In this document: one piece after another, positions 1,495 through 35,566 of the stretch
Numbering within the stretch: position 1 is the stretch's first letter
Layout of the letters: each line of letters begins with the position of its first letter
Assembly: GCF_002999235.1 (NCBI RefSeq)
Contig: NZ_CP027236.1
Coordinates: 558,001-622,000 of the forward strand
Reading direction: 5' to 3'
DNA: 64,000 nucleotides
Source: Actinomyces sp. oral taxon 897
Lineage (GTDB): Bacteria; Actinomycetota; Actinomycetes; Actinomycetales; Actinomycetaceae
The notes under the pieces: model-generated
Told to the model about the DNA's origin: nothing
Databases searched by the model: none
What the model saw: only the letters and a program-made list of their open reading frames with translations
Position numbers and translations under genes: made by a program

Positions 1495-1562
1495 GCGTTA
1501 CCGGGACGTGAACAGACGGCGGGTCCCGGACACGGCCCCGGCCTTCAGCGATACTGGTCGTC

Positions 1563-2057
1563 ATGAAGATTCTGCTCACGTCCTCCTCCCGCCACGGCTC
1601 GACCGACGAGGTCGCGGCCGTCATCGCCGAGCGGCTGCGTGCCGCCAGGATCGAGGTGGAGGTCATGCGTCCCGAGGACGTCGTCAGCGTGGACGGGTAC
1701 GACGCCTTCATCCTGGGCAGCGCCGTCTACATGACCCAGTGGACCCCCCAGGCCGTCGACTTCGCCAAGCGCTTCCGCGACACCCTGGCGGCCAGGCCCG
1801 TGTGGGCCTTCTCCGTGGGCCTCTCCGGCCTGCCCAAGGGCAAGGTGGCCGACCCCACGCGCATTGGCCCCGTCCTGCTGGCGCTGGAGCCTGAGGACCA
1901 CGTCACCTTCCCCGGGCGCTTCGCCCCCGCCGACCTGAGCCTGCGTGAGCGCGCCGTGGCCCGCCTGGGCGGGGCCTCCGAGGGCGACTACCGCGACTGG
2001 GACACCGTGCGCGCCTGGGCGGACGCCATTGCCACCACCCTCACCGCCAACGCCTGA
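1563..2057 (+). CDS. Flavodoxin-domain protein
   Basis: A 164-residue flavodoxin-like protein. The N-terminal strand and FMN phosphate-binding loop are visible as ILLTSSSRHGSTDEVA (residues 3-18), followed by the YDAFILGSAVYMTQW segment typical of the menaquinone-dependent protoporphyrinogen oxidase/flavodoxin family (HemG-like). A soluble FMN electron carrier or oxidoreductase is the reasonable role; the partner is unknown. There is no Shine-Dalgarno sequence. A -10-like GATACT (1550-1555) ends 7 nt before the ATG, so the mRNA is probably leaderless and starts at or next to the start codon. The gene stands alone between pheT and the arg cluster. HemG function itself is not demonstrated. Confidence 0.75.
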   Translation: MKILLTSSSRHGSTDEVAAVIAERLRAARIEVEVMRPEDVVSVDGYDAFILGSAVYMTQWTPQAVDFAKRFRDTLAARPVWAFSVGLSGLPKGKVADPTRIGPVLLALEPEDHVTFPGRFAPADLSLRERAVARLGGASEGDYRDWDTVRAWADAIATTLTANA

Positions 2058-2091
2058 GCCACCCGCTCCCGCCCGCCTCCCCCAACCGCGC

Positions 2092-2130
2092 GAGAACGGT
2101 ACTTATTGCTCGTGAGAACGGTACTTGTTC
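2092..2130 (+). repeat. 22-bp-period motif array, forward, 2 copies
   Basis: GAGAACGGTACTT begins at 2092 and again at 2114, exactly 22 bp apart; each is followed by R/TTGTT-type sequence. It lies 35 bases after the flavodoxin stop. Same family as arrays at 2391, 9129, 11555 and 14241. Confidence 0.85.
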
Positions 2131-2390
2131 CCCACGACCCGGGCCAGCTAGCGCTGGCAGCACCCGTCTGGTAGCCGTTGCCCTGCCACCCCGCGTGCCC
2201 GCCCGGACCTCCGCACGAGGGCGGTGGGCGTCCTCGGTCAGCGGGCACGTGCCATGGTGCCCGCAGGGTCGGCCTGGTCGGGGGCCAGGCCCCTCCACGC
2301 GACCAGACGTGCGCCGCTCCTGCACAGGGACGGGGCGGGAGCGGGTCCTTCACGGAGCGCCGGTGCTCCTGCGGGAACGCCGTGAGCGCC

Positions 2391-2442
2391 CCGTTCTCAG
2401 TACGAACAAGTACCGTTCTCGCGACGAACAAGTACCGTTCTC
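2391..2442 (-). repeat. 22-bp-period motif array, reverse, 3 copies
   Basis: CCGTTCTC occurs at 2391, 2413 and 2435, exactly 22 bp apart. The last two are full AACAAGTACCGTTCTC units; the first keeps only the CCGTTCTC half. The array ends about 50 bases before the argC -35 element and is inverted relative to the array at 2092. Confidence 0.85.
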
Positions 2443-2490
2443 GCGGTACCCGGCTGTGAGCAAGGTGACGGCAGGAGGGCGTCCCGGCAA

Positions 2491-2519
2491 TTGCATGTCT
2501 ATGCAGAAAACTGTATGTT
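2491..2519 (+). promoter_or_regulatory. argC promoter with ArgR-type boxes
   Basis: TTGCAT (2491-2496), a 17-bp spacer, then TATGTT (2514-2519), six bases before the argC ATG. The -35 region reads TTGCATGTCTATGCAG, a dyad (TGCAT...ATGCA) resembling actinobacterial ARG boxes. A second box-like stretch (TGTATGTTTCACGTATG) covers the -10 and start codon. The same TTGCAT-N17-TATGTT layout recurs before argR, which supports ArgR-arginine repression. Confidence 0.75.
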
Positions 2520-2525
2520 TCACGT

Positions 2526-3743
2526 ATGAGCTGGACAGCAGCGGTCGCCGGAGCGACCGGTTACGCCGGGGGAGAGGTCCTGCGCCTCCTGGCCTCGCAC
2601 CCCTACCTGGAGGTCGGTGCGCTCACCGCCTCCTCCAGCGCCGGCACCCGTCTCGGTGAGCACCACCCCCACCTGGCCGCCCTGGCCCGACGCCGGGTGG
2701 AGCCCACCGACGTCGCCCACCTGCTGGACCACGACGTCGTCGTGCTGGCCCTGCCGCACGGGGCCTCAGGGGCCGTCACCGCCGCCCTGGAGGAGGCGGG
2801 GGCCGCCGCCGGTCACACCCCCCTGCTCCTGGACTGCGGGGCCGACCACCGCCTGACTAGCGCCAGGGCCTGGGAGGACTACTACGGTCCCGGCTTCTGC
2901 CCGCCCTGGACCTACGGCATGCCCGAGCTCCTGCACGCCGGGGAGACCACCGCCACCGCCCAGCGCCGCGCCCTGGCCAGCACCCGGCACGTCGCCGTGC
3001 CCGGGTGCAACGTCACCGCCGTGACCCTGGCCGTCCAGCCGGGCGTCGCCGCGGGCCTGCTGGACCCCGGCGCCCTGACCGCGGTCCTGGCCGTGGGCTA
3101 CTCCGGGGCCGGCAGAGCGCTCAGGCCCCACCTGACGGCCTCGGCCGCCCTGGGAGGTGCCCAGCCCTACGCCGTCGGCGGCACCCACCGCCACATCCCC
3201 GAGGTCGTCCAGAACCTGGAGGTCGCCGGCGCCCCCGCCGGGTCGGTGCGCCTGTCCCTGACCCCCGTCCTGGTCCCCATGAGCCGCGGCATCCTGGCCA
3301 CCGTCACCGCCCCGGTGTCCGACGCCGTCGCCAGCGCCCCCGACCCCCAGGCCCTTCTGCGTGCCCCCTGGGAGGCCGCCTACGGCCCCGCTGGTACGGT
3401 CGGCGGTACGCAGGGCACAGAGGGTGCCCCGGCCAGCGGCCCCGGTACCCCGGCCGACGGCGGTCCTGGCGTGAACCCGGCCGAGGGCGAGCCCGCCCCG
3501 ACCGGCGGCGAGGCCCTGGTCAACCTCCTGGAGCCGGGCACCTGGCCCACCACCGGGGCGGTCCTGGGCTCGGGCCTGGCGACCGTCCAGGTCACCTACG
3601 ACGCCCGCGCCGGGGTCGCCACTATGCTGTGCGCCATTGACAACCTGGGCAAGGGGACCGCCTCCGCCGCCCTCCAGTGCCTCAACCTCGCCCTCGGCCT
3701 GCCCGAGGACACCGGCGTTATCACCGAAGGAGTCGCCCCATGA
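2526..3743 (+). CDS. argC: N-acetyl-gamma-glutamyl-phosphate reductase
   Basis: ArgC reduces N-acetylglutamyl-phosphate to the semialdehyde with NADPH, the third step of arginine synthesis. The N-terminal Rossmann motif is VAGATGYAGGE (residues 7-17). The catalytic cysteine is in VPGCNVTAV (Cys161), and the late GGTHRHIPEV segment is present. At 405 residues it is about 60 longer than usual. The excess is mostly a Gly/Ala/Pro-rich insert at roughly residues 290-330 (nt 3390-3510), probably a surface loop. The ATG at 2526 has no Shine-Dalgarno sequence and sits 6 nt after the -10, suggesting a leaderless mRNA. First gene of the arg operon, overlapping argJ by ATGA. Confidence 0.95.
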   Translation: MSWTAAVAGATGYAGGEVLRLLASHPYLEVGALTASSSAGTRLGEHHPHLAALARRRVEPTDVAHLLDHDVVVLALPHGASGAVTAALEEAGAAAGHTPLLLDCGADHRLTSARAWEDYYGPGFCPPWTYGMPELLHAGETTATAQRRALASTRHVAVPGCNVTAVTLAVQPGVAAGLLDPGALTAVLAVGYSGAGRALRPHLTASAALGGAQPYAVGGTHRHIPEVVQNLEVAGAPAGSVRLSLTPVLVPMSRGILATVTAPVSDAVASAPDPQALLRAPWEAAYGPAGTVGGTQGTEGAPASGPGTPADGGPGVNPAEGEPAPTGGEALVNLLEPGTWPTTGAVLGSGLATVQVTYDARAGVATMLCAIDNLGKGTASAALQCLNLALGLPEDTGVITEGVAP

Positions 3744-4918
3744 GCGTGACCACCGCCACAGGCTTCCGGGCCGCTGGAGTCGTCGCCGGGCTCAAGCGCT
3801 CGGGCAAGCCGGACCTGGCCCTGGTCGTCAACGACGGCCCCCTGGACGTGGCCGCAGGCGTCTTCACCACCAACCGGGTGGTGGCCGCCCCGGTGGTCTG
3901 GTCCCGCCAGGCGGTCGCCGACGGCGCCGCCCGCGCCGTCGTCCTGAACTCCGGCTCCGCCAACGCCTGCACCGGCGCCGCCGGCTACGCCGACACCGTG
4001 GCCACCGCCGAGAAGGTCGCCGGCCTGCTGGGGTGCCGTGCCCAGGACGTGCTGGTGTGCTCCACCGGCGTCATCGGCGAGCCCATCGCCATGCCCGCGC
4101 TCCTGGCGGGCACGGAGGTCGCCGCCAGCGAGCTCGCCGCCACCACCCAGGCCGCCCACTGGGCCGCCCTGGCCATTATGACCACGGACACGGTCCCCAA
4201 GGAGGACGCCCTGACCGTCTCCGGCTCCCAGGGGAGCTGGTCCGTGGGGGGCATGATCAAGGGCGTGGGCATGCTCGCCCCCGGCATGGCCACCGTCCTG
4301 GGGGTGCTCACCACCGACGCCGTCGTGACGCCGGAGGTGGCGGCCCGGGTGCTGGCGTCGGCGGCAGGGCGCACCGTCAACCGCATTAACTCCGACGGCT
4401 GCATGTCCACCAACGACTCCGTCCTCCTGCTGGCCTCCGGCGCCTCGGGCGTGTCCCCCGACCCCGGGGAGCTCCAGGAGGCCGTCACCGAGGTCCTGGG
4501 CCGCCTGGGCCGCCGCCTGGTGGCCGACGCCGAGGGCGCCACCCACGACATTGCCGTCACCGTGACCGGCGCCGTCAGCGAGGCCGCCGCACTGGCCGCC
4601 GCCCGCACGGTGTCCTCCTCCAACCTCCTCAAGTGCGCCGTCGCCGGGCAGGATCCCAACTGGGGCCGGGTCCTGGCCCAGCTCGGCACCGTCCCGGAGG
4701 AGGTCTGCCCCTTTGACCCCGGGCAGGTGGACGTGGCCATGAACGGGGTGACGATCTTCGCCCACGGGGCCCTGGGGAGCGACCGCTCCGAGGTGGACAT
4801 GAGCCCCCGGGAGACCCGCATCGACATCAGCCTCAACGCGGGCGACGCGACGGCCACCGTCTGGACCAACGACCTCACCCACGGCTACGTCACCATTAAC
4901 GCGGACTACACCACATGA
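3740..4918 (+). CDS. argJ: Glutamate N-acetyltransferase / ornithine acetyltransferase
   Basis: ArgJ transfers the acetyl group from N-acetylornithine to glutamate and so recycles it; bifunctional forms also make N-acetylglutamate from acetyl-CoA. The protein has 392 residues. The self-cleavage site that gives the two chains is visible as [13 protein letters not shown], with Thr185 as the N-terminal nucleophile of the beta chain. The ATG at 3740 is preceded by GAAGGAGT and overlaps the argC stop (ATGA), so the two genes are translationally coupled. A cyclic pathway means that argE is not needed. Its stop overlaps the argB start in the same way. Confidence 0.95.
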
Positions 4919-5847
4919 GCACCACCCACCTGACCGACTCCCTGACCCCTACCCAGAAGGCCTCCGTGCTCCTGGAGGCCATGCCCTGGCTGCGCGCCTA
5001 CCGGGGCGCCACCGTCGTCATCAAGTACGGCGGCAACGCCATGGTGGACGAGGACCTCAAGCGGGCCTTCGCCGACGACGTCCTCTTCCTGCACCAGGTG
5101 GGCCTGCGTCCCGTGGTGGTCCACGGCGGCGGCCCCCAGATCAGCGCCATGCTCTCCCGGCTGGGTATTGACTCCGAGTTCCGTGGCGGGCTGCGGGTGA
5201 CCACCCCCGAGGTCATGGACGTGGTGCGCATGGTCCTCACCGGCGGCGTCCAGCGCGAGCTCGTCTCCCTGCTCAACCGGGTGGGCTCGGCCGCGGTGGG
5301 CATCAGCGGCGAGGACGGCGGCCTGCTGCGGGCCCGCCAGCGCCTGGCCACGGTGGACGGGGAGGCGGTGGACGTGGGCCTGGTCGGGGACGTCGTCGAG
5401 GTCAGCCCCCGCCCGGTCCTGGACCTGCTGGCCCAGGGGCGTATCCCGGTCATCTCCTCCGTGGCCCCCCTGGTCGCCGACTCCACCACCGTGCTCAACG
5501 TCAACGCGGACACCGCGGCCGCCGCCCTGGCGGTGGCCCTGCGGGCCCAGAAGCTCATGGTGCTCACCGACGTCGAGGGCCTGTACTCCGACTGGCCAGA
5601 CCGCTCCAGCCTGGTCTCCCGCATTAGCGTCAGCGCCCTGGAGCGGCTCCTGCCCGACCTGGGCTCCGGGATGATCCCCAAGATGGAGGCCTGCGCGCGG
5701 GCGGTGCGCGGGGGAGTGGGCCAGGCACACGTCGTGGACGGGCGCCAGCCCCACTCCATGCTCCTGGAGATCGTCACCGACGACGGGGTGGGGACCGTGG
5801 TCTACCCCGATATCGCCGGGCCGGTCGGGGACGGTGACCTGGTGTGA
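4915..5847 (+). CDS. argB: Acetylglutamate kinase
   Basis: ArgB phosphorylates N-acetylglutamate and is usually the arginine-feedback-controlled step in organisms with a cyclic pathway. The amino-acid kinase fold signatures are present: [10 protein letters not shown] near residue 30, [11 protein letters not shown] near residue 65, and [11 protein letters not shown] in the ATP-binding half. Length (310 residues) is normal. The ATG overlaps the argJ stop, and the gene ends in GTGTGA, whose GTGA is the start of argD. The long argB-type N-terminal helix (residues 1-25), linked to arginine sensing in this family, is present, so feedback inhibition is plausible. Confidence 0.95.
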
Positions 5848-7103
5848 GCACGAGCGCGACACCGGCTACCACCCCGCCCGCCACCCGCTCCTGGCGCGAG
5901 CGCTACCGCCAGGCGGTCATGCCCACCTTCGGCACTCCCGCCCGGGTCCTCGTGCGCGGTCGGGGCGCCCACGTCTGGGACGCCGACGGGGTGGAGTACA
6001 CCGACCTGCTGGCAGGTATCGCCGTGAACTGCCTGGGGCACGCCCACCCCGCCCTGGTGGCGGCCGTCAGCGAGCAGATGTCCACCTTGGGGCACGTGTC
6101 CAACCTGTTCACCACCCCGGGGCAGATCCGCCTGGCCGAGGAGCTGGCCAGGATCGTCTACCCGGGCTCCGGGCCCGACCAGACCACCGTCTTCCTGGCC
6201 AACTCGGGCACGGAGGCCAACGAGGCCGCCTTCAAGATCGCCCGCCGCCACGGCGGGGCCGCCCGCCCCCGGGTCCTGGCCCTCCAGGGCGCCTTCCACG
6301 GCCGCACCATGGGGTCCCTGGCCCTGACCCACAAGGCCGCCTACCGCGAGCCCTTCGAGCCCCTGCCCGCAGGGGTGGAGTTCCTCCCCGCGGGTGACGT
6401 CGGGGCGCTGGAGGCGGCCCTGGGTCCGGACGTGGCCGCGCTGGTCGTCGAGCCCATCCAGGGCGAGGCGGGGGTGCGTGAGCTCCCCGAGGGCTACCTC
6501 CGGGCCGCGCGGGAGGCCACCGCCAGGTCCGGGGCGCTGCTGGTGGTCGACGAGGTCCAGACCGGTATGGGGCGCACCGGCGCCTGGATGGCCCACCACC
6601 TGCTGGCCCCGGGCGTGACCCCGGACGTGGTGACCCTGGCCAAGGGCTTGGGCGGCGGGTTCCCCGTCGGCGCCGTGGTGGCCCACGGCCAGGCGGCCCG
6701 CCTGCTGGGCCCCGGCCAGCACGGCACCACCTTCGGCGGGAACCCGGTGGCCTGCGCCGCCGCCCTGGCCGTCATCGACACCCTGGAGCACGATGGCCTG
6801 CTGGCCCGCGCGGCACGCCTGGGCCGGTCCTGGGCGGGCCAGCTGGCCGCCCTGGAGGGCGTGGCCGAGGTGCGGGGCCGGGGCCTGCTGCTGGGCGTCG
6901 GGCTGGAGGAGCGGGTGGGCCCGGCCGGCGAGGTGGCGGAGGAGCTCGCCGGGCGCGGGTTCATTGTCAACGCGCCGCGCCCTGACACGCTGCGCCTGGC
7001 CCCGCCCCTGATCCTGCCGGAGGCGGACGCGCAGGCCTTTACCGCGGTCCTGGGGCGGGTCCTGGGGGAGCGGGTGGGGGCCGCCAGCGGCGGGCCGGGA
7101 TGA
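5844..7103 (+). CDS. argD: Acetylornithine aminotransferase
   Basis: A PLP-dependent class III aminotransferase that converts N-acetylglutamate semialdehyde to N-acetylornithine. The PLP lysine is in [13 protein letters not shown] (about Lys267). [19 protein letters not shown] and [13 protein letters not shown] are the usual phosphate and cofactor-contact motifs. It has 419 residues and a GTG start overlapping the argB stop. In related actinobacteria argF normally follows argD. Here argD ends at 7103 and the next gene is argR, with a 108-base gap that contains the argR promoter, so argF is missing from the cluster. Confidence 0.95.
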
Positions 7104-7175
7104 CCGGCGTACCGGGGGCGGGCTCACACCGTAGAATATGTGACGAGACGAACACGATGAGACCGCGCCCCTAGT

Positions 7176-7204
7176 TTGCATGAATATACGTACAATTGTA
7201 TGTT
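7176..7204 (+). promoter_or_regulatory. argR promoter with ArgR-type boxes
   Basis: TTGCAT (7176-7181), 17 bp, TATGTT (7199-7204); the argR ATG follows 7 nt later. The AT-rich segment TTGCATGAATATACGTAC and the following repeated TGTATGTTATG resemble ARG boxes and stand out against the GC-rich background. Same -35/-10 hexamers as at argC, implying autoregulation. Confidence 0.75.
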
Positions 7205-7211
7205 ATGATTT

Positions 7212-7769
7212 ATGACGTCACTTCCTGACCGCATGGACACCCTGGTCGCCGTCCCGGCCACCAAAGCAGCCCGCCACGCCATTATCGTCCAGGTCCTGAG
7301 CAAGGAACGTATCCGCTCCCAGGCCCAGCTCCGCCAGGTCCTGGCCGAGCGGGGGGTGCTGACCACCCAGGCCACGCTCTCACGCGACCTCGTGGAGCTT
7401 CGGGCCACCAAGGTCCGCTCGGCCGGGGGGAACCAGGTCTACGCCATCCCCCAGGCCGGTGCCCCGGGGCAGGTCGGTCCGGGCGCGCCCCTGCCGGAGA
7501 GGACCCTGGAGGAGCACGTCACCGCCCGTCTGGCCCGGTGGTGCGCCGACCTCCTGGTCACCGCCGAGTGGGCGGGCAGCCAGCTCGTCCTGCGCACCCC
7601 CGCCGGAGCCGCCCAGCTCCTGGCCAGCGCGGTCGATGACGCCATGATACCCGAGGTCCTGGGCTGCATCGGCGGGGACGACACCGTCCTGGTGATCACC
7701 CACTCCAACGCCGCCGCTGAGCGCGTGGGCGCCCACCTGCTGGCCCTGGCCGAGTCGGGTAACCGCTGA
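7212..7769 (+). CDS. argR: Arginine repressor
   Basis: ArgR is a hexameric repressor that binds ARG boxes when loaded with arginine. The N-terminal winged helix runs from about residue 15 to 80 and includes [15 protein letters not shown], the DNA-recognition segment. The C-terminal oligomerisation and arginine-binding domain ends with [19 protein letters not shown]. There are 185 residues from the ATG at 7212, which has no Shine-Dalgarno sequence but lies 7 nt after the -10, so leaderless translation is likely. An in-frame ATG at 7233 is an alternative start. The gene sits between argD and argG, with its own arginine-box promoter. Confidence 0.93.
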
Positions 7770-7792
7770 CCCCCACGCCCCCGCACCCTGTG

Positions 7793-7811
7793 GCCCTGTG
7801 GGCGGCAGGGC
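7793..7811 (+). terminator. Possible weak hairpin after argR
   Basis: GCCCTG (7793-7798) pairs with CAGGGC (7806-7811) around a 7-nt loop, 24 bases after the argR stop. Only six pairs and no T-run, so it may be an attenuator between argR and argG or chance. Confidence 0.3.
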
Positions 7812-7855
7812 GACGTCGTCGTGCACAAAAACCCACTAATAAGGAGAACCTTACT

Positions 7856-9076
7856 ATGAGCACCCACAAGGACCGCGTCGTCCTGGCGTACTCCGGCGGC
7901 CTGGACACCTCCGTCGCCATTGGCTGGATCGAGGAGGCCACCGGCCGTGAGGTCGTGGCCGTGGCCGTCGACGTCGGCCAGGGAGGGGAGGACCTTGAGG
8001 TGATCCGTCAGCGGGCCCTGGACTGCGGGGCCGTGGAGGCCTACGTGGCTGACGCCCGTGAGGAGTTCGCGTCCGAGTACTGCATGCCCGCCCTGAAGGC
8101 CAACGCCCTCTACGAGGGCACCTACCCGCTGGTCTCCGCCCTGTCCCGCCCGGTCATCGCCAAGCACCTGGTCAAGGCCGCCCGCCAGTTCGGGGCCCAC
8201 ACGGTGGCCCACGGCTGCACCGGCAAGGGGAACGACCAGGTGCGCTTCGAGGTCTCTATTACCTCCATGGCCCCGGACATGGACTGCATCTCACCGGTAC
8301 GCGACCTGGCCCTGACCCGTGACGTGGCCATTGACTACGCCGAGAAGCACCACCTGCCCATTGAGACCACCAAGCACAACCCCTTCTCCATCGACCAGAA
8401 CGTGTGGGGCCGCGCCATTGAGACCGGGTTCCTGGAGGACCTGTGGAACGCCCCCACCAAGGACGTCTACGTCTACACCGACGACCCCACCTACCCGCCC
8501 CTGCCCGACGAGGTGACCATTACCTTCCGGCAGGGGATCCCGGTGGCCATCGACGGGCGCGAGGTCACCCCGCTCCAGGCCGTCCAGGAGATGAACCGGC
8601 GTGCGGGGGCCCAGGGCGTGGGGCGCATTGACATGGTGGAGGACCGGCTGGTGGGCATTAAGTCCCGCGAGATCTACGAGGCCCCCGGGGCGGTGGCCCT
8701 CATTGAGGCCCATCGGGCCCTGGAGGCCGTCACCCTGGAGCGTCTTCAGCGCCGCTACAAGCGCCAGATGGAGCAGGTCTGGGGCGAGCTGGTCTACGAG
8801 GCCCAGTGGTACTCCCCGCTCAAGCGCTCCATGGACGCCTTTATCGAGGACACCCAGAGGTACGTCAACGGGGACATCCGCATGGTGCTGCACGGCGGGA
8901 GGGCCACCGTCAACGGACGCAGGACCGATACCGGGCTGTACGACTTCAACCTGGCCACCTACGAGACCGGGGACACCTTCGACCAGTCCTCCTCGCGCGG
9001 CTTCATTGAGATCTACGGAATGCAGTCCAAACTCGCCGCGGCCCGCGACGTGCGCCTGGGCGGCGTCGGCTTCTGA
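7856..9076 (+). CDS. argG: Argininosuccinate synthase
   Basis: ArgG joins citrulline and aspartate with ATP to give argininosuccinate. The N-terminal ATP-binding P-loop is [16 protein letters not shown] (residues 9-24). [13 protein letters not shown] and [19 protein letters not shown] are family landmarks. The ATG at 7856 was chosen because AAGGAG ends 9 bases upstream and it gives the expected N-terminus and 406 residues. No obvious ARG box lies directly upstream, so it may be read through from argR. argH, normally the next gene, is displaced by 6.8 kb. A 22-bp-period array starts 52 bases after the stop. Confidence 0.95.
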
Positions 9077-9128
9077 GGACGGCAGGGGCCTCCCCGGCCC
9101 CGGCCCTGACCCCGGCCCCGTCTCTCGC

Positions 9129-9192
9129 GAGAACGGTACTTGTTCGTCGTGAGAACGGTACTTGTTGTTCGCGAGAACGGTAGTTGTTTGTC
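9129..9192 (+). repeat. 22-bp-period motif array, forward, 3 copies
   Basis: GAGAACGGTA begins at 9129, 9151 and 9173, exactly 22 bp apart, immediately 3' of argG. The third copy is slightly degenerate (GGTAGTTGTTT). It directly abuts the 19-bp-period array at 9199. Confidence 0.85.
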
Positions 9193-9198
9193 TGGACT

Positions 9199-9303
9199 GC
9201 ACGAGTTCTTGCGGACCGCACCAGTTCCTGTCGGGGGCTCCTCCGTCGGAGTCAGGTGGGGAGCTGGTAGGAACGTGTGAGATCTGCAGGAACTCGTGCA
9301 GTC
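9199..9303. repeat. 19-bp-period head-to-head motif array
   Basis: Forward units GCACGAGTTCTTG (9199) and GCACCAGTTCCTG (9218) are 19 bp apart. Reverse units GGAACGTGTG (about 9270) and GGAACTCGTGCAG (about 9289) are also 19 bp apart. The outer arms form a GACTGCACGAGTTC / GAACTCGTGCAGTC inverted repeat. No gene lies in 9077-9366. Confidence 0.75.
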
Positions 9304-9366
9304 TGTAGACCGTGGTGGTCGGTCCCTGCCCGTTACGGGGCCTGGTGCCCCTGCGCGGGGGTTCTC

Positions 9367-11196
9367 CTATGCGGGGACGTAGCAGGTGGTGCAGAAGGTA
9401 GCGCCCTTCTCCTCCATGACGAGCAGGTGGCCGGGGTCGCCCAGCGGGCTAGCCTGCACGTCCGGCAGGCTGCTCGCGTACTGCCTCCCGTCCACGACCC
9501 AGGAGAGTCCGCCCACGACCCGGGAGAGCAGGACGGCTGACGGTATGTCCTGCACCGGCCTGCCGGTGGAGGCGTCCACGAGGTTCACCGACGACCTCCT
9601 GCTGGCCCAGCACACGGCGGCCGACCCGTCCGCCAGGACCGTGAAGTCGATCTTGTACCTCCCCCCGCTGAAGATGTTGTCGTCCCCCAGGCTGAGGGAG
9701 GGGCCCGCGTCCCCGGCGTCGCCCCGGCGGCTGAAGGTCCCGTCCCCGTTCTGGACCAGGGCGACGCCGTTCTCCGCCACAACGGCCGTCGCCCCGTTAA
9801 GGCTGGTCAGTGAGCGTTGGACGACGTCGACTGAGGGGACGCCGTCGAAGACGATGCGCGCGTACTGCCCGGTCTGCTCCCACTGCAGTGCGCCGTCCCA
9901 GCCAAAGGCGCGGGCTTGGGCCGTGTGCTCTGGCGCCGTAGTGACCACGACGACCCCGTCCGTGGCCAGGATAATGCCGCGCTCACTCGGCTCGACGAGC
10001 GGTGTCAGGGTCGCCGTGGTCGCTCCTGTCGTAATGTCAATCAGGTGCGGGGTAATAGTGCCACGGTCGCCACCGGCACGGGTGCGCGACGACCGGTAGC
10101 CTATGAGGACGTCGGGGCGGGCCGGGTCGAAGGAGGCCAACACATAGGCCTCGTTTGTGCGCCAGGTTTCCTGCATCTGACGGTTGACCGCGATAATAGG
10201 ACCTTCTGCCTCCGCTCCGTCCCCGTCCTGGTACGGTGGCACCTTCAGCAGGAGGGCGGTGTCATTGTCGAGCGCCCCCAGGAAGACGTGAGAGGAGGTG
10301 TCCCAGGGGACGGGGGTCACGCCCCCGCTGCGCGGATCGATGATCTTGTCAACGAGCAGGGGATAGCTCCCCCACCATGACGTATGCACACTGTGGTGAC
10401 CGTGCTGAAAGTCGTCCCAGTCCCAGTGCGACGCCGCCACCTCGACCGGTTCCCCGACGCCGGAACCGTCAATCGGGTAAAGACGGTAGGAACTCGGCTC
10501 CGTGTCCTCTAGGGTACCGTGGAGACCGAACACGTAGTCACCCTGGGGGGATGTGCACATGCCCCTGAATGAGTCAATGCTCCAGGTTCGGGTAGCGCCC
10601 CGGGCGAAGTCTGGTGACAGGGCGGACATGGAGAACGTTCCGTGTTTTGTCTGTGGTTCCTCTTCTGTGGGGTCCTGGGGTTCTTCTGAGAGGTAGTGGG
10701 AGAGGCTCCAGGTGCTGATGCCGCCTAGGGTGGCTAGGGCGGCTCCGCCTGCGAGGAGGGGGAGTGCTCGGTTGATGGTGCGTCGGGACGGGCCCTGGGG
10801 GTGTGTGGTCCGCGGGGTCTGGTTGTCGGTGATGGTCAGAGCGGGGGTGCTGGTGTCTGTGGTGGGTGCTGGGTAGGGGGTGGTCTGGGCCTGGTCGCCT
10901 TGCGGGGTCGTGGTCCCCGCGGTGGCCGGGACGGTGGCTGGGGCCAGACTGGTGGCCAGAGTGTTGGCGGGGGCCGAGCCCGCGGCCGGGGTCGGGTTGG
11001 TGGTTGTGGTGGCCTGGTAGTGGGTGATCCACTGGTGGAGGGCGGGGTAGCAGTGGGGGTGGGCGGCAATGGCCGGGTGGAGGTCGGGGCGGGTTGCGGC
11101 TATGCGGGCGAGCTCGGCGGCGGGGGTGTGCGGGTTGCTCAGGGCCTCGGCGTCGGGGTCTCGGGGTGGCGTGGTAGGTGATGGGGTGCTGGTCAT
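9367..11196 (-). CDS. LRV-domain membrane protein with large extracellular domain
   Basis: 609 residues from the ATG at 11196. That start is supported by TACCCT (minus strand, 11208-11203) exactly 6 nt upstream, a leaderless arrangement. Residues 15-60 (NPHTPAAELARIAATRPDLH...HPHCYPALHQWI) match the variant leucine-rich-repeat module found in actinobacterial proteins. A Thr/Pro/Ala-rich linker (62-143) and one transmembrane helix (about 145-168, LPLLAGGAALATLGGISTW) follow. The remaining 440 residues are probably extracellular and look beta-rich, with repeating VV/AV...DG segments as in propeller-type folds. The C-terminus ends CTTCYVPA. Function unknown; an envelope sensor or binding protein is a guess. 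It is the only minus-strand gene among the first 49 kb and lies inside the argG-argH gap. Confidence 0.7.
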   Translation of the reverse strand: MTSTPSPTTPPRDPDAEALSNPHTPAAELARIAATRPDLHPAIAAHPHCYPALHQWITHYQATTTTNPTPAAGSAPANTLATSLAPATVPATAGTTTPQGDQAQTTPYPAPTTDTSTPALTITDNQTPRTTHPQGPSRRTINRALPLLAGGAALATLGGISTWSLSHYLSEEPQDPTEEEPQTKHGTFSMSALSPDFARGATRTWSIDSFRGMCTSPQGDYVFGLHGTLEDTEPSSYRLYPIDGSGVGEPVEVAASHWDWDDFQHGHHSVHTSWWGSYPLLVDKIIDPRSGGVTPVPWDTSSHVFLGALDNDTALLLKVPPYQDGDGAEAEGPIIAVNRQMQETWRTNEAYVLASFDPARPDVLIGYRSSRTRAGGDRGTITPHLIDITTGATTATLTPLVEPSERGIILATDGVVVVTTAPEHTAQARAFGWDGALQWEQTGQYARIVFDGVPSVDVVQRSLTSLNGATAVVAENGVALVQNGDGTFSRRGDAGDAGPSLSLGDDNIFSGGRYKIDFTVLADGSAAVCWASRRSSVNLVDASTGRPVQDIPSAVLLSRVVGGLSWVVDGRQYASSLPDVQASPLGDPGHLLVMEEKGATFCTTCYVPA

Positions 11197-11292
11197 GGGT
11201 GGAGGGTAGCTCGGGTGGCGTGTGCGTCGTCGTTCCTGGTGGGGGTAGGTTCCTGTCCGTGGTGTAGTGACCTGGTGTCCTCCTGTATCGGG

Positions 11293-11425
11293 GACGTACC
11301 CTAGCTGCCGGCGACGTGCCATAGTCACCGGGGACGTACTCTGGAGGTCGTCTGGGGTACGTCGCCAATGACTAGGGTACGTCATCGATAGCTAGGGTAC
11401 GTTGTCGGTGACTATGGCACGTTCC
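11293..11425. repeat. 20-bp-period head-to-head GACGTACC array
   Basis: GACGTACC-type units start at 11293, 11313 and 11333; the inverse GGTACGTC-type units have GGTAC/GGCAC at 11356, 11376, 11396 and 11416. Spacing is exactly 20 bp in both arms, with the CTAG/CTAT and CACCGG flanks conserved. The array lies 97 bases upstream of the minus-strand LRV gene. A second copy of this layout is at 15658. Confidence 0.85.
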
Positions 11426-11554
11426 CGTGGGGGATGAAGAGGGTGAGGGGGACAAGGTGCCGCGGGACCCGGTGGGCACCCCTCGCAGCGCCCCGTCCTG
11501 GCGGCGGACGGCCCCGCGGCAGGGGCGTCCGCGGCCAGGCCACCAGGACGCCCC

Positions 11555-11606
11555 CCGTTCTCACGGCCAACAAGTACCGTTCTCACGACGAATAAGTACC
11601 GTTCTC
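11555..11606 (-). repeat. 22-bp-period motif array, reverse, 3 copies
   Basis: CCGTTCTC at 11555, 11577 and 11599, exactly 22 bp apart; the first unit is a half-site, the others are AAYAAGTACCGTTCTC. It lies in the 798-base intergenic region between the LRV gene and the O-antigen-ligase-like gene. Confidence 0.85.
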
Positions 11607-11696
11607 GCGGAGGAGGGGGTGCGCGAGGGCATGGACGCTGGGGGCGCGGGCGCCGGGCCGGCTCAGGGCCAGCGTGTTCCTGCTGGCTGGCCCCCA

Positions 11697-11902
11697 CCGA
11701 GTCGTGCCCACGACCTAGGGCAGGTCGCTGCCCGCCCCGGCCCCTCCCGTGGTCGCCCGAGTCGTGCCCACGACCCGGGGCAGGTCACCAGCACCAGCTG
11801 GCCCCAGGATCCGGCTGGCCCCACCGCATGGCCGAGTCGGGCCGCAGGGGCGGCGGCCGGCCTCGGGATCCGGCTGGCCGCCACCGCGTGGCCGAGTCCG
11901 TC
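11697..11902 (+). repeat. Composite direct repeats with ~60-bp period
   Basis: CCGAGTCGTGCCCACGACC occurs at 11697 and 11757 (60 bp apart), each containing the palindrome GTCGTGCCCACGAC. GGATCCGGCTGGCC occurs at 11807 and 11866 (59 bp apart). The element CCGAGTC recurs at 11697, 11757, 11832 and 11892. It ends about 90 bases before the next start codon. No coding bias is seen. Confidence 0.75.
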
Positions 11903-11994
11903 AAAAACCTCTTACTATGTCCCCGGCGGGCGTGGTCCGCCCTCGGCAACGCCGAGGCTTTGCTGACAACGTAACGGAAGGCGGCGGATCATCA

Positions 11995-13380
11995 ATGGAG
12001 CGCACGCGGACACGCGCTGCTGTGATGAGCTCACGGCCCAGGCTCATGCCCGCGCTGGGCACCTGGGCCTCCTTCCTGACCTTCTCCGGCCAGGGAGTGC
12101 GCAATATCGTCGGGTGGACCCTGTTCGGGGTCATCGCCGCCATCAGCACTGTCATCCTCCTGGTCGTCTTCCTGCGTGAGGGGCACCGCGTCCCCCTGCG
12201 CGCCCTACCGCCAGTGGCCTGTGCCTACACCGTCCTGTGCGTCCTCAGCCTCGTCTGGTCGCAGTTCCCGGCGGAGACCGCGCTCGCAGCCGCGCTCATG
12301 GTGGCTACGAGCGCGGTCGGCATTCTGCTGGCCTGCAGCCTGTCGCTGCGTGAGCTCACCGTCGCGCTGGGACGTGCCCTGGAGGCGACGATCGCCCTGA
12401 GCCTGGTCCTGGAGGCCTGGGTCGCCCTGGTCCTGCACCACCCCCTGGCGCCCCTGTACATGCGGAACTGGGACGTGATCCCGTCGTCCTACTACTGGAG
12501 CGACGGGCTGCTCTTTCAGGGTGGACCGATCCAGGGGATCATCGGCAACCGCAACCCCCTGGCCTTCGTGGCCCTGCTGACCCTCATCTGCGTGGTCGTA
12601 CGATGGCGCGACCACCAGATCAGCAACTCCCACCTCGTCGTGTGGTCCGCCCTGTGCCTGCTCACCCTGGCGCTGACCCGTTCGGCCACCGTCACCGTGG
12701 CCACGATGGTGTGCGGGGGGCTCGCCTTCCTGCTGTGGTGCCTGCGCAGGCTGGGGGGCGCCAGGCGTCGGCGGGCGCTCGTCATGGCCGCAGGGGCGGC
12801 CATGGTGGCGGGGGCCCTGTCGCTGGTCTGCAACCAGACCATCATTATGCTCCTGGGGCGCTCGCCCGACGCCAGCGGACGGTGGGTGATCTGGGAGCGG
12901 GTGATCGCGCTGTGGCAGCAGCGTCCCATCCTCGGCTGGGGGTGGATCATGTACTGGGAGCCCTGGATCCCCATGTTCCAGACCCTGGTCATCCGTCCTG
13001 ACGGCACCCCTACCATGAGCGCGCACAACGCCTACGTCGAGGCGCTGTTCCAGACCGGCGTCATTGGCGCGCTGCTCATTGTCCTGCTCATGGCCCAGCT
13101 GCTGATCCAGACGGGGCGGCTGGCGCTGCGCTACCTGGACTCCGACTCCTCCGTCCTCCTGCCCGTCCTGCTGACTACGGCCCTGGCGGTGCAGGCACTC
13201 AGCGAGTCCCGCCTGCTCTCGGAGGGCAACTGGATGGTCGTCTGCGCCCTGGCTACCTGGCTGGGGCTTCACCGTATGGTCGAGAAGACGGCAAGCCGCT
13301 GGCGTCCCTCGTCAGACGCCACCCGCAGTATCTACCTCCCGACAAGCTCCCGTCGCAGCGAGCGCATGCTCGTGCCCTAG
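11995..13380 (+). CDS. O-antigen ligase/polymerase-like membrane protein (Wzy_C type)
   Basis: A 461-residue polytopic protein with about 10-12 hydrophobic segments. The large loop and following region carry Wzy/WaaL-type features: GRWVIWERVIALWQQRPILGWGW and, after a short gap, SAHNAYVEALFQTGVIG. Proteins of this superfamily polymerise or ligate lipid-linked polysaccharide on the outer face of the membrane. In Gram-positive bacteria they are usually part of a capsule or wall-polysaccharide cluster, but here no glycosyltransferase or flippase lies next to it. The ATG at 11995 follows GGAAGG at a rather long distance. It is an orphan inside the repeat-rich argG-argH gap. The substrate cannot be inferred. 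Confidence 0.75.
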   Translation: MERTRTRAAVMSSRPRLMPALGTWASFLTFSGQGVRNIVGWTLFGVIAAISTVILLVVFLREGHRVPLRALPPVACAYTVLCVLSLVWSQFPAETALAAALMVATSAVGILLACSLSLRELTVALGRALEATIALSLVLEAWVALVLHHPLAPLYMRNWDVIPSSYYWSDGLLFQGGPIQGIIGNRNPLAFVALLTLICVVVRWRDHQISNSHLVVWSALCLLTLALTRSATVTVATMVCGGLAFLLWCLRRLGGARRRRALVMAAGAAMVAGALSLVCNQTIIMLLGRSPDASGRWVIWERVIALWQQRPILGWGWIMYWEPWIPMFQTLVIRPDGTPTMSAHNAYVEALFQTGVIGALLIVLLMAQLLIQTGRLALRYLDSDSSVLLPVLLTTALAVQALSESRLLSEGNWMVVCALATWLGLHRMVEKTASRWRPSSDATRSIYLPTSSRRSERMLVP

Positions 13381-13383
13381 GTG

Positions 13384-13398
13384 CACCTCTCCGAGGTG
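13384..13398 (+). terminator. Short hairpin after the O-antigen-ligase-like gene
   Basis: CACCTC (13384-13389) pairs with GAGGTG (13393-13398) across a TCC loop, beginning 3 bases after the stop codon. No T-run. Confidence 0.4.
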
Positions 13399-13660
13399 GA
13401 TGGCCGGCTTACGTAGTCGCGGTTTGACGTGCTTGGAGGTACGAGTTCAGTTTTAGTGCTTATAGCAATCCTCGCGTCGCAGCTCGATGTGCTCGGGAGG
13501 TGCTTCTCCGTGGGCGCGAGGGGCCTGTCTGGACACCCCCGTCTCCACGCTCGGCGCCCTCCCGCTGTCCATGGCCGCGAGGGTCCTGTGCTGTCTCCCG
13601 CCCCCGCGTGAGAGCAGATTGGTTATGCGCGCCCTGGTGGGGCCGGGCGCCTGGTTCTGT

Positions 13661-13785
13661 CGCAATCTGAGGATCAGAGCCGGGCCCACCCCGTTCCCGT
13701 CTTTGTGCACCTGATGTCCACGCAGGTCAGGGGCTTGGGCTCCAATGCGGTCGGGGGTACCTTCCGTTCTGATCCTCAGATTGCG
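13661..13785. repeat. 125-bp element bounded by perfect 18-bp inverted repeats
   Basis: CGCAATCTGAGGATCAGA (13661-13678) is the exact reverse complement of TCTGATCCTCAGATTGCG (13768-13785). Each arm also contains its own dyad, TCTGA-GGA-TCAGA. Size and perfect termini resemble a MITE. No clear target-site duplication was seen: the flanks are TTCTGT and TCACGC. Two operator sites in opposite orientation is the alternative. Confidence 0.65.
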
Positions 13786-14063
13786 TCACGCACACGGATC
13801 CGGGCCATCAGACAGGCGGCAGACTATCCAGAGTTCCGCATAAACCACCTCGAACTGCGCCCGGAGACCACCCGGGCGGCCCCGAGTCGCCCAGATCCGG
13901 GGCGCACGGCGTCCTCGAAGGACTGACCGGGTGTCCCTGAACTGTCCCACAGCCACCAGGCACCCGGGCCGCCAGACGACCGCCGGGACTAGAGCGCACC
14001 CGCACAGGCCAGTAGGCGCGTGCCACCCGGCAGTCCACCCCGCCACCGACTCACCATTCTCCC

Positions 14064-14150
14064 CGTATGGCCATGACGACCGCGGGATGGGCAGGTCCAC
14101 CGGCGCCGAGTGGGACATCCTCCCTGTACCCCTATGGTCATGACGACCGC
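14064..14150 (+). repeat. Two-copy direct repeat, 67-bp spacing
   Basis: CGTATGGCCATGACGACCGC at 14064 and CCTATGGTCATGACGACCGC at 14131 differ at two positions. They sit in the gene-free stretch upstream of the formate/nitrite transporter gene. Confidence 0.6.
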
Positions 14151-14240
14151 ACCACCCGACAGCCCAGGTACCCGGGCTGCCCAGAACTCATTGACGGGCG
14201 CTCCTGGCGACCCGGACCCGGAGACGGCCCGACGCGCCAT

Positions 14241-14314
14241 CCGTCCTCACCACAAATAAGTACCGTTCTCGCGGCGAACAAGTACCGTTCTCGCGAGCAA
14301 TAAGTACCGTTCTC
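14241..14314 (-). repeat. 22-bp-period motif array, reverse, 4 copies
   Basis: CCGTYCTC at 14241, 14263, 14285 and 14307, exactly 22 bp apart; the first is a degenerate half-site, the other three are AAYAAGTACCGTTCTCGCG. The largest of the five arrays, about 450 bases upstream of the transporter start. Confidence 0.85.
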
Positions 14315-14385
14315 GCGGAGAGGGGGCGGACTGGCGGGTGCCGCGACGGGCAGCCGCGGAGCCAGCTCCACCACCGGCGTCGCCC

Positions 14386-14645
14386 CAGGCTCCCTGGTCC
14401 GTGTGGCAACCACCGGGACGGGACAGGGACGGGCCAAGGAGGAGGACAGGCTCCCTGGTCCGTGTGGCAACCACAGCCCGGAACCCAGGTCACCCAGGCT
14501 CCAGCCCGCGTGAGGCCGTCGATGACCCTAATGAGCGTGGCCCCACGGCGTCGGGAGACTCTCCTGGTCCACGTGGGCAAGCCTCGGCCCGGGCGCCCAG
14601 GCGGCGCAGGTCCCGCAGGCTCTCCCGGTCCACGTGGGCAAGCCG
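14386..14645 (+). repeat. TGGTCC-containing direct repeats upstream of transporter gene
   Basis: CAGGCTCCCTGGTCCGTGTG is found at 14386 and 14447 (61 bp apart, identical over 28 bases). A related form, TCCTGGTCCACGTGGGCAAG, lies at 14571 and a variant near 14622. The second form contains the palindrome CCACGTGG. All lie within 400 bases of the transporter start codon. Confidence 0.65.
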
Positions 14646-14766
14646 GTTGACGGTGTGGGCCTACAGTCCTAGGCGGAGGCCTGATAGGTGCCGCGGCCGG
14701 GCGCCGGGGGCCTACCAGGACCTGCTGAGGGGTGCCAGATCGCTCAGCCCGTGCGACCATAGGGCC

Positions 14767-15639
14767 ATGGCTGAGACCCAGGCCGCCACGGAGGCGGCAG
14801 CGCCCAACCAGTTGTTCCCCGGTAAGCAGTTCATCTCCACCGTCCTGGAGGCACTGGATACCAAGACCCGGATGACGGGCAATATAGCCCAGCGGTACCT
14901 CATGCGCGCGGCCATGGCGGGCATGATCGTGGCCGTCTTCTACATTGTCAACTACGCCATTGTCGGGACCTTCGCCGAGCTAGGGGCGGCGGGGGTGGGG
15001 AAGTTTCTCGGCGCCCTCGCGTTCGGACCGGCCTTGGTGTTCATCTACTACACCAAGTCCGAGCTCCTGACCTCCAATATGATGGTGGTGGTCATCGGCC
15101 GCTACTACAAGCGTATTACCACGTGGCGGGGCATGAGGGTCCTGTTCATGTGCTTTATAGGCAACTTCCTGGGCGGGCTCGTCTTCGCCGTCATGTACCG
15201 TTTCTCCACCCTGGTGGGAGGCGCCACCGGGGAGCAGGCCGTCCACTCCGTGCAGGCCAAGCTGGCCTACATGGACTCGGTCTCCGGGGTGGGGGACCTC
15301 TTCGTACGGGCCATCCTGTGCAACTTCATGATCAACCTGGCAATGCTCCTCATCTACAACGGGTTCATCCACGACGACTGGTCCAAGATCGTGTCCATGA
15401 TCGTGGCCGTGTTCGTCTTCGCCTTCCTGGGGTTCGAGCACTCCGTGGCCAACACGGTCCTGTTCACCGTCGTGGGCCTCACCCACGGGATCGACGTCCT
15501 GGCCGCGAGCGGGAACGTGGCCGTGGCGCTCCTGGGCAACTTCGTGGGCGGAGGCGTCCTCATTGGCGCCTACTACGCCTACGCCAACGACGACCGCTGG
15601 GTCCGCAGCCGGGTCAGGGCCGCCGTACCGCACTCCTGA
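14767..15639 (+). CDS. Formate/nitrite transporter family protein
   Basis: A 290-residue FNT-family membrane channel (FocA/NirC-like, pentameric in known members) passing formate, nitrite or similar monovalent anions. Six hydrophobic segments are visible, starting at MRAAMAGMIVAVFYIVNYAIVG; the family-type LAFGPALVFIYYTKSELLTSNMM and FLGFEHSVANTV segments are present. The ATG at 14767 gives the expected short cytoplasmic N-terminus; ribosome-binding sequence is weak, and a GACCAT hexamer 6 nt upstream might be a leaderless -10. No pfl, nir or formate dehydrogenase gene is adjacent, so the anion is not determined. It lies inside the argG-argH gap, followed by a 20-bp-period array. Confidence 0.85.
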   Translation: MAETQAATEAAAPNQLFPGKQFISTVLEALDTKTRMTGNIAQRYLMRAAMAGMIVAVFYIVNYAIVGTFAELGAAGVGKFLGALAFGPALVFIYYTKSELLTSNMMVVVIGRYYKRITTWRGMRVLFMCFIGNFLGGLVFAVMYRFSTLVGGATGEQAVHSVQAKLAYMDSVSGVGDLFVRAILCNFMINLAMLLIYNGFIHDDWSKIVSMIVAVFVFAFLGFEHSVANTVLFTVVGLTHGIDVLAASGNVAVALLGNFVGGGVLIGAYYAYANDDRWVRSRVRAAVPHS

Positions 15640-15657: not shown

Positions 15658-15763
15658 GACGTACCTTAGTCACCGGGGACGTACCCTGGAGGTACGTTGC
15701 CAGCGATTAAGGTACGTCGCCGGTGGCTACGGTACGTTCCCGGCGACTAAAGTACGTTCCCGG
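15658..15763. repeat. 20-bp-period head-to-head GACGTACC array
   Basis: GACGTACC units at 15658 and 15678; inverse units with GGTAC/AGTAC at 15691, 15711, 15731 and 15751, all at 20-bp steps, each followed by GT(C/T)(G/C)CCGG-type sequence. It is the second member of the family at 11293. It fills the interval between the transporter gene and argH and could also fold as a long hairpin in RNA. Confidence 0.85.
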
Positions 15764-21500: not shown

Positions 21501-26655
<5,155 letters not shown>

Positions 26656-26931
26656 CGCGAGGCACACGCGAGCAAGCAAGCGAGCGTCAGCGCACGCGAG
26701 AGCGAGCGTCAGGCACGCGAGAGCATGCCACGGACCACCCCCCAGCGTGGGGGGTGGGCGTCCACTATACGGTCCACGACCAACCCCCGCCACACACGCT
26801 GGTCCGCACCACACCGGTGCGCACCCGCAGGGGCACACGACAGGTATAACAGAACACGGGGCACGCACCCACGACACCACCACCCCCACACGGGGACGGC
26901 AGGCACCGTGGGACACGCCCTGACCAGGCCC
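26656..26931 (+). other. 23S-5S spacer
   Basis: About 275 bases, A/C-rich with repeated GCGAG/CACGCGAG units, no tRNA. It contains the 3' strand of the 23S processing stem (around 26758-26795) complementary to the 16S-23S spacer. Confidence 0.7.
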
Positions 26932-27051
26932 GTCCTGGTGGTCATAGCGGGGGAGCCACGCCCGGCCCCATACCGAACCCGGAAGCTAAGACCCCCAGCG
27001 CCGATGGTACTGCACCCGCCAGGGTACGGAAGAGCAGGACACCACCAGGAC
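26932..27051 (+). rRNA. rrf: 5S ribosomal RNA
   Basis: The terminal helix GTCCTGGTGGT (26932-26942) pairs with ACCACCAGGAC (27041-27051), enclosing the canonical CCCATACCGAACCCGGAAG and GGTACTGC segments. 120 nt. Confidence 0.95.
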
Positions 27052-35448: not shown

Positions 35449-35566
35449 GCACCCTGCCGGGCGGCCGCGCACCTGGACGTGGGTGGTGCCCGCTGGCGCA
35501 GGCGCCCTGCCGGGGGGACGCCACCGGGGGGGCGGGCCGGGGGCGCGCCCGCAGTAGCCTTGGCCC

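Follow-up and report, generated by a model that had tools for sequence, protein, structure and literature searches.

Directional arrays of a 22-bp-spaced motif beside genes of Actinomyces, a possible family of polar transcription boundaries

Why does one short motif recur in rows, always at the same step, in the gaps between genes? The question is raised by a 64,000-nucleotide stretch of Actinomyces sp. oral taxon 897 (NZ_CP027236.1, positions 558,001 to 622,000; hereafter the window). A preliminary description of the window had reported five intergenic arrays of one motif at exactly 22-bp spacing, and had interpreted them as operator arrays that hold a cooperatively binding protein on one face of the DNA. 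When the 64-kb window was scanned with GAGAACGGTACTTGTT, allowing up to 3 mismatches, 13 matches were found against 0.07 expected from shuffles, and 12 of the 13 made up the five arrays, exactly where they had been placed and with every step equal to 22 bp; a lone weak match at 10631 (3 mismatches) was excluded from the array counts. None of the five overlapped a predicted gene. Here we describe these arrays as members of a real, abundant, genus-level element of Actinomyces, which we read tentatively as polar rows of sites for a putative protein, most likely serving as a transcription boundary or terminator.

The element is spread through the whole genome of the window's species (G000). With up to 2 mismatches, the 16-mer occurred in 426 copies, divided between the strands as 204 and 222, and its reversed control gave a single match. 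Two-unit matches, with a gap of 0–20 allowed, numbered 385, and the gap was 6 in all matches listed. For closer inspection we used 39 stretches of 20 kb together with the window, which amount to 844 kb of the 3,249-kb genome and contain 40 arrays; by extrapolation the genome holds about 150 arrays, five of which are in the window. The sample yielded 128 units (up to 3 mismatches), and 124 of them were exact if position 14 may be either A or G, letters found there in 62 and 65 of 127 units, respectively; neighbouring units were 22 bp apart at each of the 87 steps. Furthermore, 38 of the 40 arrays were clear of predicted genes (gene calls being 82% coding). The spacing is therefore conserved elsewhere in the genome and copies do not lie inside genes as often as between them, two points on which the preliminary description had staked its operator idea. 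An exact three-unit scan of genome contigs with the G000 word gave no match, in a search from which near records may be left out.

Each unit consists of a near-invariant 16-bp core and a 6-nucleotide linker that is looser yet constrained, mostly NNYCGY (127 units); in the general architecture described below, the shared core is CGAGNNCGGT, which reads GAGAACGGTACTTRTT in G000. In the motif direction, the element begins with a C-rich, G-poor tract, continues with n units and usually ends with a half unit, an exact GAGAACGG half unit following 44 of the 55 distinct arrays collected, a set from which arrays close to locus ends were skipped. The tract gains strength over about 40 nucleotides, reaching C 0.60 and G 0.16 in the 10 nucleotides before the array, and the median upstream pyrimidine content was 71% for the 55 arrays versus 50% for 327 array-free 3′ regions.

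We asked how the arrays are placed relative to genes, whose positions were taken from our own simple codon-bias caller, which will have misplaced some starts and miscalled some small genes. In the G000 sample, arrays were enriched in convergent gaps (13 of 76) compared with co-directional (15 of 320) and divergent ones (5 of 78). The arrays pointed outward, the gene behind being the closer neighbour in 36 of 40 cases (p=2e-7), and this polarity was found both where the nearest edge was a stop (26 of 29) and where it was a start (10 of 11). A second data set came from the sister species A. succiniciruminis AM4 (G041) and A. glycerinitolerans G10 (G010), identified by 100% identity over 3.0 and 3.6 kb. 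The loci of this pair were preselected by match to one array pattern and form a non-random sample of 47 arrays, after removal of one A. succiniciruminis array within a predicted gene and with arrays near locus ends skipped; 34 of the 47 pointed outward, and 19 of the 23 in co-directional gaps were sense-after-stop. Because some loci occur in both sister species, A. succiniciruminis alone gives the safer count: a stop behind 28 of 36 arrays, outward polarity in 26 of 36 (p=0.01) and sense-after-stop placement in 13 of 17 co-directional cases (p=0.05). In nine arrays of the pair the stop was called at a point 12 bp into the array, which is the TAG of CGAGGTCGGTAG in those that have this sequence. 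A single case at a gene without translation was seen in G025, where a 5-unit array begins 4 bp past a tRNA-Ala gene.

These results support the operator idea in part. The near-invariant core with its looser linker does fit a DNA-binding protein; a local promoter-operator array is unsupported, because the arrays are genome-wide, lie mostly beside 3′ ends and as a rule begin with the C-rich tract, on the side facing the adjacent gene. Behind the array was a stop rather than a start in 27 of 40 cases in G000 and 39 of 47 in the sister pair, which is not the placement upstream of regulated genes expected of promoter-operator (regulon) arrays; only a minority of arrays are upstream of starts, including three of the window's five. 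The supposed alignment of all units on one DNA face holds only approximately, with steps of 22 bp here and mostly 23 bp in A. succiniciruminis, A. glycerinitolerans and G024.

The convergent ends, with arrays in 13 of 76 gaps versus 5 of 78 for divergent ones, would also suit chromosome-organising sites, at which a nucleoid, SMC-related or topoisomerase protein would act at supercoil-prone ends of transcription units, any effects on transcription being secondary. The genome-wide spread and the phasing of about two helical turns agree with such a function, but it needs neither polarity towards genes nor a strand-specific C-rich tract, and replichore orientation bias was not significant (Fisher p=0.10, with the origin guessed from the parS cluster and the terminus taken as opposite); we consider it unlikely. 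Clustered parS-like TGTTTCACGTGAAACA sites, which presumably mark the origin region, were observed at 3532–8576 of sampled stretch L069.

How far does the element extend beyond one species? The exact two-unit word was found in 2 of 213 genomes of the family, and outside G000 it amounts to one copy, in G033, where a 1.5-unit element lies just behind a PRK-family kinase gene, probably coaA. The general pattern GAGNNCGGT (three units at 20–23-bp steps) describes a wider architecture, CGAGNNCGGT plus a linker of 12–13 nucleotides. It matched 246 times in G000 and 6–357 times in 13 other Actinomyces species; in the rest of the 49 genomes of the genus there were one or two matches in three and none in 32. 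Outside the genus, a single match was found in each of 3 genomes out of 164, which is the control level, since the reversed pattern likewise matched in 3 of 164. The exact word is thus nearly confined to one species and the architecture is wider, so that an impression of restriction to the species is right for the word but not for the architecture. G026 had 23 two-unit and zero three-unit matches, and the array pattern also occurred in a record of A. ruminis CtC72. When 100 kb from each of twelve congeners was scanned for tandem units of any sequence, like arrays with other words emerged, clearly in G024, G025 and G034. In the literature searched we found no description of such arrays in Actinomyces; the preliminary description knew of no described element with this sequence.

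The variants can be considered dialects. At the centre of the core G000 carries AA; the arrays listed for G006, G008 and G016 carry AC, and those listed for G009, G013 and G017 carry AT. GT predominates, alongside some AT, in A. succiniciruminis, A. glycerinitolerans and G024, and TT predominates in G025; centres are mixed in the partly TT-selected arrays of G028 (TT/AT) and G034 (TT/GT/AC). The step is mostly 23 bp in the sister pair and G024, versus 22 bp in G000, and in the sister pair the core is mostly CGAGGTCGGT, with an ending after the last core of about NGATATGGC. The C-rich, G-poor tract is present in the sister pair as well (C 0.57 versus G 0.14 in the 10 nucleotides before the arrays) and, in small samples of 7 and 6 arrays, in the AC and AT lineages. 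In a species tree built from up to three proteins for 47 of the 49 species (G008 and G046 were left out, and G029 was not assigned a dialect), the AA dialect and the AC, AT and GT/TT groups occupied distinct branches, and an array-poor relative sat next to or inside each of the last three. Array-poor relatives of the array-rich species include G033, G005, G042, G032 and G047. Dialects, defined by core centre and linker, broadly track this small protein tree, with mixed centres in the GT/TT/AT group of 22–23-bp steps.

Congruence of dialects with phylogeny is also a property of the DNA uptake sequences (DUS) of Neisseriaceae, and would suit self-recognition, in which a surface or import protein would prefer DNA carrying the array dialect of its own species. 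A ComEC-family match (PF03772) was found in 49 of 49 genomes, array-less species included, so that this competence gene is uninformative as a discriminator. Roughly one array per 20 kb is sparse compared with thousands of DUS copies, and self-recognition leaves the polarity and the C-rich tract unexplained; we consider it very unlikely.

Several genomes contain other array families, with 19- and 20-bp steps: L130 4569–6035 in G025, L187 19530–19710 in G034, and L172 19290–19480, L173 9341–9460 and L175 8601–8740 in G024. They often form close inverted pairs, are sometimes apparently nested and may be further systems of the same kind.

Are the arrays simply dispersed repeats or mobile remnants, that is, terminal repeats of small elements or self-expanding minisatellites, spread by some agent and tolerated at gene ends? 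Several observations point in this direction. Of the 33 array-bearing gaps in G000, 7 hold two arrays, which always face each other (+ then −, never − then +) and enclose bodies of a few hundred bp; gaps with arrays exceed other gaps in length, and a few downstream bodies are common to several loci. At each of two G008 loci that were inspected, the two-unit array is a perfect 31-bp inverted repeat immediately past a stop, a palindrome with identical arms, and more such pairs occur among the matches listed; one gap in G025 holds several array families, apparently nested. However, the 400-bp upstream flanks show no BLAST similarity to one another (E 1e-6), and in A. succiniciruminis the arrays seen mostly occupy short gaps and have no body. 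A larger mobile unit was rejected, since upstream flanks share nothing and downstream similarity consists mostly of partner arrays and a few shared bodies among the matches listed. Remnants would also be expected to decay, yet 124 of 128 units are exact. No genome of the 49 matched Y1_Tnp and a single one (G020, without a three-unit array) matched Mu-transpos_C, these being the two transposase domains covered by the search.

The history of individual loci bears on the same explanation. Nine stretches orthologous between A. glycerinitolerans and A. succiniciruminis, some without arrays, were aligned. In three cases an array differed by one unit (22 or 23 bp) between the species, a variation in unit number that would suit a self-expanding repeat, and no listed gap of at least 9 bp equalled a whole array, at loci preselected for an array in one species. 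Array positions are common to the two: an array lay behind the same gene in 5 cases and in only one species in 1, with 21 genes lacking arrays (p=7e-5). With G024, 3 were shared and 11 were without (p=0.003), two of the shared cases being the preselected rplY locus. Over six stretches the sister species differed at 1 of 198 core, 1 of 121 linker and 49 of 1129 positions of the 80-bp flanks, so that the array core diverges less than its flank (p=0.004). Taking both sides together, we regard dispersed repeats or mobile remnants as possible, though doubtful.

Between more distant species, sharing was not detected or not clear. For G000 and A. succiniciruminis orthologues, 1 array was shared, 2 and 6 were unshared and 40 genes were without (p=0.38). 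In the same order (shared, unshared, unshared, without), the counts were 1, 1, 2 and 23 for G000 and G025 (p=0.21), 0, 2, 1 and 12 for G000 and G024, and 0, 2, 1 and 16 for G000 and G034 (both p=1). A. succiniciruminis gave 2, 0, 3 and 15 with G025 (p=0.05), 0, 2, 1 and 15 with G034 (p=1) and 1, 1, 0 and 6 with G028 (p=0.25). At one locus an array directly follows aroD (type I 3-dehydroquinase, identified by Pfam on one of six) in G010, G041, G024, G025, G028 and G034, all of one clade, with differing dialects and 22- or 23-bp steps. These aroD–rplY loci came from a search with the G000 rplY, 18 of 30 loci being inspected; several others of the 18 are array-less, and G000 has another gene there.

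Do the arrays act as RNA? The sense-after-stop bias (19 of 23 in the sister pair, 13 of 17 in A. succiniciruminis alone) would be expected of an element working in 3′ untranslated RNA by affecting its stability or processing or by binding a protein. A share of the array RNAs had more structure than shuffles, with z<-2 for 12 of 53 in G000 (median -0.98) and 17 of 47 in the sister pair (median -1.76), and the two G008 array pairs fold as perfect hairpins of about -66 kcal/mol, exceptions among modestly structured array RNAs. Against this, co-directional arrays in G000 are antisense to the hugged gene as often as sense, G000 (GAGAACGG) lacks the palindromic core seen in the GT, TT and AT dialects, and the constant 22–23-nucleotide period with a loose linker fits no RNA need that we know of. 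An RNA-level element is accordingly quite unlikely. Nor do the arrays resemble intrinsic terminators, which combine a stable hairpin with a T tract: a pattern scan of window positions 1500–15000 found none at the arrays (1 site, at 13428, versus 2.4 expected from shuffles), and in an RNA-family search of the window nothing at the arrays reached the gathering score, ribosomal RNA (rRNA) alone being reported. At convergent ends, hairpins were weaker where a sense array was present, with medians of -19.7 (17 ends) versus -26.6 kcal/mol without (99 ends; p=0.002) in G000, and -19.6 (18) versus -23.5 kcal/mol (35; p=0.007) in the sister pair.

We therefore return to polar transcription boundaries. 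A row of protein sites is proposed because the core and step are fixed, the arrays have a direction, the dialects follow lineages and positions are stable in close relatives; a boundary or terminator is proposed because the arrays point away from the nearest gene and are preceded by a rut-like tract. A sequence-specific protein likely binds the arrays, and it is plausible that this protein, once bound, blocks transcription. Each element would then be the polar boundary of a transcription unit, composed of a C-rich, G-poor tract of about 40 nucleotides and head-to-tail sites bound every 22–23 bp by a protein that would have evolved together with its sites in each lineage. A polymerase leaving a gene, whether in sense past the 3′ end or in antisense back from the 5′ end, would encounter first the tract and after it the row of proteins, oriented alike for both exits; the row would pause or block RNA polymerase and end transcription. 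Rho might load on the C-rich RNA, although its help in termination is speculative. We count in favour of such boundaries the copy number, the fixed spacing, the polarity, the C-rich tract, the tRNA-Ala case, the aroD arrays, the weaker hairpins, the low divergence and the dialects.

Several results weigh against this interpretation. The co-directional gaps of G000 showed no bias (9 of 17 arrays sense-after-stop); arrays also occur in gaps between divergent genes (5 of the 33 array-bearing gaps in G000 and 4 of the 47 sister-pair arrays), and near start codons the outward rule breaks down in the sister pair (4 of 8). G033 and G005, the closest to G000 in the tree, are nearly array-free. The hairpin deficit was not significant after shuffle correction (p=0.36 in G000 and 0.08 in the sister pair), the raw difference in G024 was not significant either (4 versus 9 ends, p=0.60), and one G006 array (L255) adjoins an obvious hairpin terminator. 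No binding protein was identified among the searches made. Since the hairpin difference does not persist when composition is corrected for, we only infer the termination step, on mixed evidence. Overall, the case that a protein binds the arrays is strong, and the case for a role at transcription boundaries is moderate. In its fullest form, the elements would be genus-wide boundaries in lineage dialects, each a C-rich Rho-loading tract with head-to-tail sites for a single DNA-binding protein that co-evolves with them, gained or lost whole in several Actinomyces lineages, terminating transcription at 3′ ends, blocking divergent transcription at 5′ ends and forming a bacterial counterpart of Reb1/TTF-I roadblock termination; we hold this complete scenario to be doubtful.

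Should the arrays prove to be terminators or boundaries occupied by a protein, they would represent an additional means by which bacteria end transcription, specific in sequence and based on arrays, and the genus would offer a natural dialect series in which one DNA-binding protein and over a hundred sites changed together. Even if they are only a repeat family, they constitute an abundant, lineage-diagnostic element of the genus Actinomyces.

The five arrays of the window illustrate the anatomy in detail. Array 1 (2092..2129, + strand; units at 2092 and 2114) begins 34 bp past the stop codon of a flavodoxin-domain gene (2057), the interval 2058..2091 (+) being a C-rich, G-poor tract. It faces array 2 (2391..2442, − strand), which comprises units at 2405 and 2427 and a final half unit GAGAACGG (2391–2398), lies 83 bp 5′ of the argC start and is directed away from argC, a gene named from its sequence alone. 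Array 3 (9129..9188, +; units at 9129, 9151 and 9173) follows the argininosuccinate synthase gene argG by 52 bp, with a C-rich tract from its stop codon (9076) to the array (9077..9128, +). Array 4 (11555..11606, −; units at 11569 and 11591, final half unit at 11555–11562) is directed away from a gene of the Wzy_C (O-antigen ligase) family, whose called start at 12046 is 439 bp distant, and a minus-strand C-rich tract (11607..11636) adjoins its first unit. Array 5 (14241..14314, −) has units at 14255, 14277 and 14299 and an imperfect half unit GAGGACGG (14241–14248); it is directed away from a formate/nitrite transporter gene (called start 14767, distance 452 bp), with a minus-strand C-rich tract at 14315..14344 adjoining its first unit. 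An LRV_2-domain gene is a further neighbour by Pfam. The forward arrays thus follow gene 3′ ends and the reverse arrays precede gene 5′ ends, as first reported. Units and half-sites were likewise present as counted, but the half-sites, read at the outset as the first units of the reverse arrays, are the last element in motif direction: on the forward strand they are written CCGTTCTC at 2391 and 11555 and, imperfectly, CCGTCCTC at 14241, at the low-coordinate end of all three reverse arrays. Both forward arrays are without a half unit.

Other repeats were observed in the window. Directly behind array 3 (9197–9301), two copies of a second motif family (about CTGCACGAGTTCTTGC) stand in inverted orientation, and a similar word stands beside the single array of G033. 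A tandem motif of about GGTACGTNGCCNNTGACTA with a 20-bp step occurs at 11355–11414, near the start of the LRV_2-domain gene, and at 15690–15749, upstream of argH. The dispersed element TCCTCAGATTGCG(A/T)CA, present in 7 other sampled stretches, forms an inverted pair about 112 bp apart at 13661–13785, and an element with GTTGCACATTCATCC words and a conserved neighbourhood, found at 49341–49460, recurs in 10 other sampled stretches. A 22-bp tandem repeat, AGGGGCCCGGGATGCCGGGGTC, at 38392–38479 has no sequence relation to the array motif. The window also contains a complete rRNA operon (21501–27050); ARAGORN reported no tRNA in it and one doubtful 633-bp tmRNA at 35335–35967.

How do the arrays compare with known systems? 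Repetitive extragenic palindromic (REP) sequences and bacterial interspersed mosaic elements (BIME) occur in many extragenic copies of species-specific sequence at gene ends, often as inverted pairs, and are associated with REP-associated tyrosine transposases (RAYT). The arrays are also many, extragenic, located at gene ends, lineage-specific and often paired in inverted orientation, but they are direct tandem units at a fixed step and are non-palindromic in G000. RAYT-driven REP elements were rejected because Y1_Tnp (PF01797), which matched 5 of 14 control genomes, matched none of the 49 genomes of the genus. The ends of Tn7-, Tn5053- and Tn552-type transposons carry repeated TnsB/TniA sites about 19–23 bp apart, in inverted orientation and flanking a body. 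Site spacing and inverted orientation around a body are similar in the arrays, whereas array positions are kept between sister species and no array-bearing genome has Mu-transpos_C (PF09299), which matched only G020, without a three-unit array, and 0 of 14 control genomes; Mu/Tn7-type ends were thus rejected as a current driver. Together, the two domain searches argue against REP/RAYT and Tn7-like origins. Clustered regularly interspaced short palindromic repeats (CRISPR) have repeats of about 24–48 bp and unique spacers of about 26 bp or more. The arrays likewise have fixed-length repeats with variable sequence between them, but with a 16-bp core and a 6-bp linker they are not CRISPR arrays; they are many, small and dispersed, and their linkers recur across arrays. 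G000 has separate CRISPR-like arrays. Small ones with a repeat of about 37 nucleotides and a step of about 73 bp were seen at L047 4082, L054 14886–15247, L066 8404 and L073 2640–2927, with a variant in G033 (L113, about 17000), and L055 carries from 9753 a CRISPR array with a step of about 61 bp, the repeat of which we take to resemble type I-E.

The DUS of Neisseriaceae, described in PMC3630211 as dialects congruent with phylogeny in thousands of copies, share with the arrays a conserved core and lineage dialects; the arrays differ in being phased rows of units beside a C-rich tract and in their far fewer sites. Rho-dependent terminators (rut sites) have a cytosine-rich upstream stretch (PMC10670590). 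A C-rich, G-poor upstream RNA is found in G000 and the sister pair too, although the array tract is only about 40 nucleotides long and is followed by a sequence-specific array, and the role of Rho is our proposal. A functional parallel may lie in protein roadblocks: in yeast, roadblocks by Reb1 and other general regulatory factors end transcription or limit divergent non-coding transcription at promoters (PMC9481977, PMC12366685), a subject reviewed in PMC10310618. In the same manner, the protein sites proposed here would end transcription or limit divergent transcription at promoters; by analogy, the Actinomyces sites would differ in being bacterial and arranged in arrays, with a putative protein whose blocking activity is a proposal.

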